This document shows positions 39,165-41,708 of a stretch of 41,708 nt of DNA, piece by piece. Under the pieces are notes generated by a model, which was given only the letters and a program-made list of their open reading frames with translations, ran no database searches and had not been told where the DNA came from. How positions within the stretch are numbered: position 1 is the first letter of the stretch; the number at the start of each line of letters is the position of its first letter. A program made the position numbers and the translations under genes. Where the stretch lies: NCBI GenBank assembly GCA_017553445.1, contig JAFZMD010000066.1:1-41708 (forward strand), written 5' to 3'. The DNA comes from Methanobrevibacter sp. (GTDB lineage: Archaea; Methanobacteriota; Methanobacteria; Methanobacteriales; Methanobacteriaceae).

Positions 39165-39377
39165 CTATTCTACTTTAAATCCGGCTTCTTCAACCGCTTC
39201 AGCCAAATCAGCATCGCTTACTTTATCACTGTCTAATGTGATTTTGGTAATTCCTGAGTCTAAATCAGCTTTTGCATCTTCAACTCCATCAACATCAGTT
39301 AATGATAATTGTACAGCATTTACGCAGGAAGGACAGTGCATTCCTACAACTTTAATTTCTTTTTCTTCGAGTGCCAT
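39165..39377 (-). CDS. HMA-domain copper chaperone (CopZ-like)
   Basis: A 70-aa heavy-metal-associated domain with the metal motif as 'GMHCPSCVNA' (Cys15 and Cys18), followed by the usual beta-alpha-beta pattern to 'EEAGFKVE'. Such proteins carry Cu(I) to a P1B ATPase. The start at 39377 is one base after the ATPase stop, and its Shine-Dalgarno GGAGG lies in the last codons of the ATPase gene. An upstream in-frame ATG at 39392 overlaps that site. The ATPase itself lacks an N-terminal HMA domain, so this small protein probably supplies it in trans (inference). Confidence 0.9.
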   Translation of the reverse strand: MALEEKEIKVVGMHCPSCVNAVQLSLTDVDGVEDAKADLDSGITKITLDSDKVSDADLAEAVEEAGFKVE

Positions 39378-39378
39378 A

Positions 39379-41271
39379 TTAAAAGCCTCCATGTTTTTTA
39401 TAGTTATATTTTTTTAATTTTGTTTTATTTAAATTTTTATCATTGCTTTGTTTTTTATTTTTGTGGGAAATTCTGTAACTGATTAAGGTTGAAGAGTATA
39501 TTATTACAACAACGGAGCCTATATTATGGATTAATGCTCCTTCAATAGGATTTAAATATCCCAATATTGCCAATCCCATGGCCAGTATATTTAAAAATAA
39601 TGCAAATCCAATGCTTCTATTTATAATGCTGACAGTTTTTCTTGCAATTCCAATCAAATGGGGAATGTCTTCTATATTGTCATTAATTAATGTAATATTT
39701 GCTGCTTCAACACTGATATCACTTCCAATGTCTCCCATAGCTATTCCCACATCTGCTTTTCTTAAGGATGGTGCATCATTTACTCCATCTCCAATCATTG
39801 CAACCCTGTGTTTTAGATTTTGCTCTTTTTTGATGTATTCCAGTTTATCTTCAGGTAAACAGTTTGATTCAACGTTTCTAATTTTTATTTCATCAGCAAT
39901 GGATTTTGCTATTTTTTCATCGTCTCCAGTAAGCAGTGTAGTTTTGATTCTTAACCCTTTTAATTTTCTGATTGTTTCTTTTGAAGTTTTGCGCAATGTA
40001 TCTCGAAGCAATATTTTTCCAATAATTTCACAATCTTTTGCTACATATATTGTGCTTTCGCCTTTTTTGGTTTCATTATTATATTTTAAAGGAATATTTT
40101 CTAATTCTAAAAGTTTCTTATTTCCGGCGATTATTTTAGAACCGTTTATGGATCCGCTAATGCCTTTGCCGATATCCATCTTAAAGTTATTGACCTCAGC
40201 AAATTCTTTTTTATTATAATGTTTTACAATTGCCTTTGCTAAAGGATGTTCGGATTTTGATTCTAGGGATGCCGCTAAATACATCATTTCTTTAGGGTTA
40301 TTTGAAATAACTTTAACAACTTTTGGGGTTCCATAGGTTAATGTTCCAGTTTTGTCAAAAATCAATTCATCAACATGAGCCAATTCCTCTAAAGACTGCC
40401 CGTCCTTTACTAAAATGCCATATTTTGTTAAGTTTCCAATTGCTGCCATAATTGCAGTTGGTGTTGCCAGAACCAATGCACATGGGCAGAATACCACTAG
40501 AATAGTAACTGATCTTGTGATTTCAAATGTATATAGATAGGTCAATATTGCAGATATAAAAGCTATTACAACAATTAAAGTTGCCCATTTGTCTGCCTGG
40601 CGAACAATTTTCGCATTTTCTGGTTTGGATGTTTCAATCAGTTTAATTAGCTTTTGAAGGGAACTGTCCTGGCTGATTTTTGTTGTTTTCATTGTAAATG
40701 ATCCATAAAGATTTATCGTTCCGCTGTATACTTCATCATTTTCTTTTTTATCAACTGGCAGTGATTCTCCAGTCAATGTTTTTTGGTCTATTGAGCTTTC
40801 TCCATTAATGATAATTCCATCTGTTGGAATGCTTTCGCCTGGAAGTACTTTTATTATATCTCCAACATTTATATCATCAACAGGTATTTTTTCTTCTATT
40901 CCATTTTTAATTCTTGTTGCAAATTGGGGGGTCATATTTACAAGTTCTTTTATTCTTCCTTGAGTTTTTTTAACAGTATATTCTTCTAGAAATCCTCCGA
41001 TAGCCATAATTGTTGCAATTTCACCAGCTGCAAATGTTTCACCAATAATTATTGATGCTATAATGGCTATTGAGACTAGTAAGTCTGCTTTTATATCAAA
41101 TTCTCTAATTAATCCTTCAATGCATTCTTTAAATATAGGTGTCCCGCATAATATAATAGCTATCCATGATAAATAATCTATTTGCAAAATTAAACTTGCT
41201 AATAGGCTTATCGCAGATATGGCTAGTGATATCATGTTTATTTTTTCATGCTTGTCAAATGTGAGATTCAT
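39379..41271 (-). CDS. P1B-type heavy-metal-exporting ATPase, probably copper
   Basis: A 630-aa membrane ATPase with the metal-path motif CPC in 'VVFCPCALVLATPTAI' (about 262-264), the phosphorylated Asp in 'DKTGTLTYGTP' (about 306), 'TGES' in the actuator domain, 'SEHPLAKA' and 'GDGVNDAPSLRKADVGIAMG'. CPC fits Cu(I) or Zn/Cd transport. The last helices contain 'HNIGSVVVIIYSS' and lack the 'YN' of classic CopA, so sequence alone leaves the metal open. The CsoR repressor and its operators point to copper. There is no N-terminal HMA domain. I chose the ATG at 41271 for GGGGTTGAT just upstream; the ATG at 41286 overlaps this site. A CsoR-type operator lies at 41296-41313. Confidence 0.9.
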   Translation of the reverse strand: MNLTFDKHEKINMISLAISAISLLASLILQIDYLSWIAIILCGTPIFKECIEGLIREFDIKADLLVSIAIIASIIIGETFAAGEIATIMAIGGFLEEYTVKKTQGRIKELVNMTPQFATRIKNGIEEKIPVDDINVGDIIKVLPGESIPTDGIIINGESSIDQKTLTGESLPVDKKENDEVYSGTINLYGSFTMKTTKISQDSSLQKLIKLIETSKPENAKIVRQADKWATLIVVIAFISAILTYLYTFEITRSVTILVVFCPCALVLATPTAIMAAIGNLTKYGILVKDGQSLEELAHVDELIFDKTGTLTYGTPKVVKVISNNPKEMMYLAASLESKSEHPLAKAIVKHYNKKEFAEVNNFKMDIGKGISGSINGSKIIAGNKKLLELENIPLKYNNETKKGESTIYVAKDCEIIGKILLRDTLRKTSKETIRKLKGLRIKTTLLTGDDEKIAKSIADEIKIRNVESNCLPEDKLEYIKKEQNLKHRVAMIGDGVNDAPSLRKADVGIAMGDIGSDISVEAANITLINDNIEDIPHLIGIARKTVSIINRSIGFALFLNILAMGLAILGYLNPIEGALIHNIGSVVVIIYSSTLISYRISHKNKKQSNDKNLNKTKLKKYNYKKHGGF

Positions 41272-41295
41272 TTCTATCAACCCCATTAGTATAGG

Positions 41296-41313
41296 TATAC
41301 CCCCTATGGTATA
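41296..41313. promoter_or_regulatory. CsoR-type operator in front of the P1B ATPase
   Basis: TATACC-N6-GGTATA, with C-rich centre CCCTAT. It overlaps the expected transcription start: a TATA-like TTTAAAAA lies about 25 bases upstream on the - strand. Confidence 0.75.
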
Positions 41314-41332
41314 TGCTAATTTTTAAAAAAAA

Positions 41333-41593
41333 TTAAAGTCTGGAGTAGTATTCTAAAATTGATGAAATATCTCCCAATGCTTCATCAGCATCACCATCAT
41401 TAATGGCTTCTTTTACACAATGTTCAAGGTGTCCTTCCACTATGATGTGTCCAACCTTATGTAGTGCTGATTTTGAAGCATTTACCTGCATTAAGATTTG
41501 TTCGCAGGGAATATCTTCATCTATCATACGGTCAATTGCATTGATTTGGCCGATGATTTTTTTAAGTCTTCTATGTAAATTTTCACTATCCAT
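41333..41593 (-). CDS. csoR: CsoR-family copper-sensing repressor
   Basis: A small all-helical DUF156/CsoR protein, 86 aa from the ATG at 41593, or 90 aa from a TTG at 41605. The ligand set is Cys in 'DIPCEQIL', then His 25 residues later and Cys four after that in 'GHLEHC'. That is the exact Cys-His-Cys spacing of Mycobacterium CsoR (C36, H61, C65) and differs from RcnR (Cys-His-His) and CstR (Cys-Cys). Apo-CsoR binds operators and lets go on Cu(I). The N-terminal 'RRLKKIIGQINAIDRMI' is the family's helix 1. Both candidate operators flank this gene. Start uncertain: neither site has a strong Shine-Dalgarno. Confidence 0.92.
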   Translation of the reverse strand: MDSENLHRRLKKIIGQINAIDRMIDEDIPCEQILMQVNASKSALHKVGHIIVEGHLEHCVKEAINDGDADEALGDISSILEYYSRL

Positions 41594-41617
41594 ACATTCT
41601 TTCAAAATAACACAACC

Positions 41618-41635
41618 TATACCTACTAGGGTATA
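41618..41635. promoter_or_regulatory. CsoR-type operator in front of csoR
   Basis: TATACC-N6-GGTATA, with centre TACTAG: the same half-sites and spacing as at 41296-41313. A TATA-like ATTTATATAC on the - strand at about 41648-41657 would start transcription inside it, giving autorepression. Confidence 0.75.
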
Positions 41636-41708
41636 TGGATTTTTTAGTATATAAATATTGTTATATGAATTTTTTTAATATTGGCAAATATTAATACTTT
41701 ATTTATAA

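Follow-up and report, generated by a model that had tools for sequence, protein, structure and literature searches.

Two palindromes flanking the csoR gene of a gut Methanobrevibacter contig are very probably the operators of the adjacent CsoR-family repressor, which would control both its own synthesis and that of an ATPase-HMA operon and would be released from the DNA by metal. The window analyzed here is the whole of contig C90 (41,708 bases, ending at 41708) of a 1.96 Mb assembly, and along its minus strand, counted from the contig end, lie a TATA box, a palindrome, csoR, a second palindrome, a P1B-type ATPase gene and a gene for an HMA-domain protein. The relatives of the contig that carry names are Methanobrevibacter from rumen and gut.

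In the mechanism that we propose, apo-CsoR would bind a TAC-X8-GTA dyad over the start regions of its own promoter and of the ATPase-HMA promoter and block transcription from both, until a thiophilic metal (most likely Cu(I) or Zn(II)/Cd(II)) occupies the Cys34-His59'-Cys63' site, to which Cys4 may contribute another ligand, and CsoR lets go. The pump and its chaperone would then be made, the pump exporting the metal and the HMA protein acting as carrier, and newly made CsoR would close the loop.

Locus organization and promoter geometry

The first candidate operator (TATACCTACTAGGGTATA, 41618..41635, 5' of csoR) joins the half-sites TATACC and GGTATA through the spacer TACTAG, and its position and dyad are kept in 58 congeneric csoR genes; the second (TATACCCCCTATGGTATA, 41296..41313, between csoR and the ATPase gene) has the spacer CCCTAT and is kept in 56 congeneric loci. 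Neither the window nor the rest of the assembly has another exact copy of TATACC-N6-GGTATA, and an 8 Mb first-order Markov simulation with the same dinucleotide make-up produced none, which bears out the observation of identically spaced palindromes before csoR and the ATPase gene made in an earlier, sequence-only reading of this DNA. Allowing one mismatch adds three sites in the genome, for a total of five against 16 for a reversed control pattern; because the control yields more matches, we make no claim for additional regulon members in this genome.

The csoR gene (41333..41605, minus strand) encodes a 90-aa CsoR/RcnR-family repressor (PF02583, E=1.1e-24) and begins with a TTG codon at 41605, a start supported by an ATG at the same codon in relatives. 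Its TATA box (TTTATATA, 41648..41655, minus strand; present at the same offset in 49 of 58 congeners) is centered 25 bp upstream of the center of the csoR palindrome, and an A/T-rich, TATA-like box of the ATPase promoter (about 41321..41328, minus strand; same-offset box in 50 of 56 congeneric loci) is centered 20 bp upstream of the center of the ATPase palindrome. The usual archaeal TATA-to-start distance is ~26 bp, so that the predicted operators cover or abut both predicted starts, as had been expected from the sequence alone; this geometry would fit simple repression through blocking of the polymerase.

The ATPase gene (39379..41286, minus strand) specifies a P1B-type metal ATPase of 635 aa (TIGR01525, 567 bits; alignment to LpCopA), although a GG-rich stretch just 5' of it that is kept in relatives suggests that translation perhaps starts at the ATG at 41271 rather than at 41286. 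The 3' end of this gene is overlapped by the start of the HMA gene (39165..39392, minus strand), whose CopZ-like product, a putative metallochaperone, carries the motif MHCPSC (PF00403, E=1.6e-13) and matches CopZ models at scores below the NCBIfam cut-offs.

Conservation of the sites and their association with csoR

We surveyed 139 genomes of the family, 98 with PF02583 and 41 without it. The exact motif is present in 87 of the 98 csoR-positive genomes and in 5 of the 41 csoR-negative ones (Fisher p about 3e-18, to be taken as a measure of association and not of independent events, since the genomes are related), and the reversed pattern, found in 45/98 and 21/41 of them respectively, has no such link. 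The check that the sequence-only reading had proposed, a search for the palindrome upstream of orthologous genes in relatives, comes out in its favor. A motif-free test, in which all TAC...GTA dyad spacings were counted around 101 csoR genes, returned the TAC-X8-GTA dyad in 81 upstream and 81 downstream regions, as against no more than seven regions for each of the spacings 5-7 and 9-13 and no more than 21 for spacings 3-4. Two fixed sites ~321 bp apart flank csoR in nearly all genomes of the window's genus, and the csoR-side profile of these congeners consists of a TTTATATA box followed by ATACCC-n3-TAGGTATA, with the region's highest conservation in the palindrome half-sites. The palindromes hence behave as predicted CsoR operators in a layout common to relatives, and the earlier suggestion of an autoregulated csoR holds up at this level. 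In one genome (L110, G029), csoR is tandemly duplicated, with operators between the copies and after the second and none seen before the first.

The regulator

The csoR product of the window contains PF02583 only and has no helix-turn-helix, as is typical of the CsoR/RcnR repressor family, and among solved structures its closest match is a CsoR (4m1p, E=1.9e-15). Its ligand residues, Cys34, His59 and Cys63, have the 25/4 spacing given in the sequence-only reading and are near-invariant in about 100 relatives. That reading took the spacing as the mark of a Cu(I) sensor; the Cys-His-Cys arrangement stands, whereas specificity for Cu(I) does not follow from it, because the Ni sensors of the family use C-H-C too (InrS combines it with an N-terminal ligand) and because the clade has a fourth conserved Cys.

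This residue, Cys4 in the start motif KxCMD, is near-invariant in Methanobrevibacter, Methanosphaera and the bacterial members of the clade, unlike in characterized Cu(I) CsoRs, which have no such conserved N-terminal Cys. It aligns near the N-terminal ligand position of the Ni/Co sensors InrS and RcnR, members of the same family, and may likewise serve as a ligand; in InrS and RcnR, however, the ligand is His, and the Cys of the window protein lies about two positions along. The residue before the first Cys of the triad is usually Pro, as in InrS, in contrast to the Tyr of the aligned copper CsoRs.

The pump and the identity of the metal

Alignment to LpCopA places CPC in TM6 (FCPCALVLATP), LN in TM7 and HNxGS in TM8 of the window pump, which is without an N-terminal HMA domain. 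LpCopA has YN and MxxSS at the corresponding sites of TM7 and TM8, and these together with CPC constitute the signature of P1B-1 Cu+ ATPases (PMC3573892), of which the window pump has the CPC and neither of the other two elements. The combination of CPC with HN has been termed 'P1B6-like' and is exemplified by M. tuberculosis CtpC, a zinc exporter for which manganese has also been proposed (PMC9374683); the window pump resembles CtpC in having CPC and an HN in the last TM helix, whereas its partners are CsoR and the HMA protein and that of CtpC is PacL1 (DUF1490). A domain search of the window found no DUF1490/DUF6110 partner gene beside the pump.

The same genome encodes a canonical P1B-1 CopA on contig C47 (826 aa, with two CASC HMA domains, YN and MALSS) and a P1B-2-like pump on contig C16. 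Contig C71 (L284) carries a second HN-type P1B ATPase, which has a His-rich C-terminal tail and orthologues across the genus. No X8 site was found upstream of these three pump genes within the sequence checked (up to 600 bp; only a short stretch for the C71 pump, whose gene is close to its contig end).

Read as a canonical copper system, the locus would unite a CsoR that senses Cu(I), an ATPase that exports Cu+ and CopZ in what the sequence-only reading called a complete copper regulon. The C-H-C triad with its 25/4 spacing, the CopZ-like HMA gene and the likeness of the sites to type-2 CsoR operators are all consistent with this, and similar regulons of gut Firmicutes are treated as copper regulons in PMC4938975; the pump, however, has HNxGS in place of the YN and MxxSS of the P1B-1 table (PMC3573892), the canonical CopA on C47 has no site, Cys4 is conserved and Pro replaces Tyr before the first Cys. 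The claim of a complete regulon is unsupported, because the pump is HN-type and the P1B-1 CopA lies elsewhere in the genome without a site, and we regard canonical copper control as a serious contender that falls just below an even chance. A P1B6-like pump under a CCHC sensor of another metal, most likely Zn/Cd and possibly Fe, is suggested by the CPC and HN that are the signature of the zinc exporter CtpC (PMC9374683), by the listing of P1B-6 as Fe(II) (PMC7558416) and by the DUF6110-P1B6 operons and FeoA that follow the same operator in Methanosphaera (see below). The window pump nonetheless has a CopZ-like HMA protein instead of a DUF1490/DUF6110 partner, and C-H-C sensors of the CsoR family with CopZ neighbors mostly respond to Cu(I); we consider control by another metal quite conceivable, if somewhat short of an even chance.

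Two further readings concern the regulator itself. Many Methanosphaera copies of the palindrome are distant from csoR, and one genome (G122, 72% complete) has four sites and no csoR that we could find, as would be expected if the palindromes served another DNA-binding regulator and stood beside csoR by chance; we hold this to be very unlikely, given that the sites track csoR across two domains of life, disappear without it and are similar to a proven CsoR operator. A persulfide or sulfide sensor of the CstR type would suit an anaerobic, sulfide-rich habitat, and an X8 G-tract site is also present at one Streptomyces regulator whose gene adjoins rhodanese genes, but the conserved metal-binding His59 and the metal-pump targets do not fit such a sensor and the unit has no sulfur genes, which leaves this reading with hardly any probability.

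Relation to characterized CsoR systems

The operator of Streptomyces lividans CsoR, ATATACCCCTNAGGGGTATAT, requires its TAC/GTA dyad for binding (PMC3902906). The predicted CsoR operators of the window share with this system the regulator family, a TA-flanked C/G-tract pseudopalindrome with a TAC/GTA dyad (the traits of a type-2 operator) and targets comprising csoR and copZA-type genes; they differ in having X8 where the S. lividans operators have X9, and Cys4 and a pump without the Cu+ signature are particular to the window. The spacing, X8 against the X9 of characterized operators, is one of the points that count against the operator reading. A Staphylococcus epidermidis plasmid operon, csoR-copA-copZ (CP053006.1, L307), has the same gene order of csoR, ATPase and HMA chaperone as the window; unlike the window, it has X9 operators, no KxCMD N-terminal Cys and an ATPase annotated as copper-translocating.

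An independent study of gut Firmicutes (Hobbs 2016, PMC4938975) inferred CsoR-type autoregulation together with control of P-ATPases. The CsoR meta-regulon of that work, which deals with Firmicutes only, resembles the window in that C-H-C regulators control themselves and a P-type ATPase, often from dual sites, and the window differs from it in its archaeal promoter context and in the CopZ-like gene of its operon. Dual sites 25 bp apart occur in our Terrisporobacter loci (L212 and L214).

CsoR, the type-2 operator and the CsoR-P-ATPase regulons of gut Firmicutes are already known (PMC3902906; PMC4938975). For methanogens, a search of the open-access literature yielded a csoR annotation for M. 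ruminantium (PMC7772410) and no operator; nor did we find there a CsoR clade distinguished by X8 and Cys4, a link of this clade to HN-type pumps or the Methanosphaera regulon. Should binding be demonstrated, a methanogen would possess a set of CsoR-type operators, and a single repressor with its operator, both of bacterial style, would serve bacterial and archaeal promoters alike. The consensus offers a search pattern for studies of metal homeostasis in the principal methanogens of humans and ruminants, and the linkage of regulator, operator and pump from genome to genome makes the question of what P1B6-type pumps transport testable.

Distribution beyond the Methanobacteriaceae

The unit is not specifically archaeal, since the same CsoR clade and X8 operator, together with an orthologous pump, occur in gut bacteria, and the supposition that the consensus belongs to an archaeal branch gives way to that of a type-2 operator shortened by 1 bp. 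The nearest CsoR relatives outside the family come from gut Clostridia (Terrisporobacter, 66-67%; Flavonifractor, 63%), Parasutterella, Mailhella, Actinobacteria and Methanomethylophilaceae, and no CsoR was found outside the Methanobacteriaceae in the same phylum (152 genomes). Where bacterial members of the clade have the orthologous pump downstream, an X8 palindrome lies between csoR and the pump in 16 of 17 loci, and a member on a Roseburia plasmid has an X8 site too, whereas ordinary CsoR loci (S. epidermidis, Acetoanaerobium, Priestia, Sagittula) use X9, which makes X8 a trait of the clade, with exceptions. Four loci of clade members from Methanomethylophilaceae/Methanomassiliicoccaceae (L237, L238, L244, L247) have X9 sites, two per intergenic region, that precede a related HN-type pump.

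Several single loci show further variation. Anaerocolumna (L243) has five X8 operator-like sites in tandem at exact 20-bp intervals, 110-30 bp upstream of csoR. The csoR of an Oscillospiraceae locus (L217) lies directly 3' of a P1B6-like ATPase (31% to the window pump), which ties the clade to P1B6 pumps in bacteria also. The Streptomyces palindrome mentioned above lies 71 bp upstream of its CsoR-family regulator (L312).

In the ATPase tree, the csoR-linked archaeal and bacterial pumps form one group, apart from the site-less paralogues of the Methanobacteriaceae; the bacterial phyla are intermixed within this group and the sampled archaea are separate. This mixing suggests that the history of the pump may include transfer; the tree does not fix the deep order, and we claim no direction. 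In those csoR-negative genomes of the window's genus that we searched, nothing closely orthologous to the cognate pump turned up, and among the top matches is the C71-type paralogue (45-48% identity), which has no site. Two genomes of another genus (g6) encode a 52% pump homologue with HNxGS and have no csoR, and no palindrome was seen at these homologues (one with <300 bp of upstream sequence).

A wider set of sites in Methanosphaera

In Methanosphaera, csoR follows rpiA-like genes, apart from the pump, and most of the csoR genes there have no upstream site, from which we conclude that autoregulation was lost; this, too, weighs against the operator reading. The pump orthologue retains a site in trans in six genomes, and several genomes have 5-8 exact copies of the motif each, most of them close to TATACC(C/T)(A/T)TAGGGGTATAGG and with a TATA box at a fixed offset. 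Expanded CsoR-type operator sets of up to eight per genome are found at L152, L155, L161, L165, L168 and L286-L290. Downstream of the Methanosphaera sites lie DUF6110-P1B6 operons (PF19605, E=2.5e-7), FeoA (E=9.8e-19), genes for DnaJ-domain proteins and genes for small proteins of 33-46 aa, which fall into several families and in many cases contain a membrane helix. This coherent set of sites across genomes, the pump included, is best read as a regulon on which CsoR would act in trans, and it is the most interesting lead of this analysis. We suggest, tentatively and with more doubt than belief, that the CCHC/X8 CsoR clade of gut archaea and bacteria senses a non-copper metal for P1B6 and P1B6-like pumps and that in Methanosphaera it has expanded into the trans regulon with DUF6110-P1B6 operons, FeoA and the small membrane proteins. 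Located 3' of csoR or the operators in four loci (L157, L160, L169, L171) is a conserved family of ~40-46-aa membrane proteins (one member tested gave no Pfam match), of which MNGIIKKIGLAIVQVLMAIIMLIGLFYLHIYETKPIY is an example.
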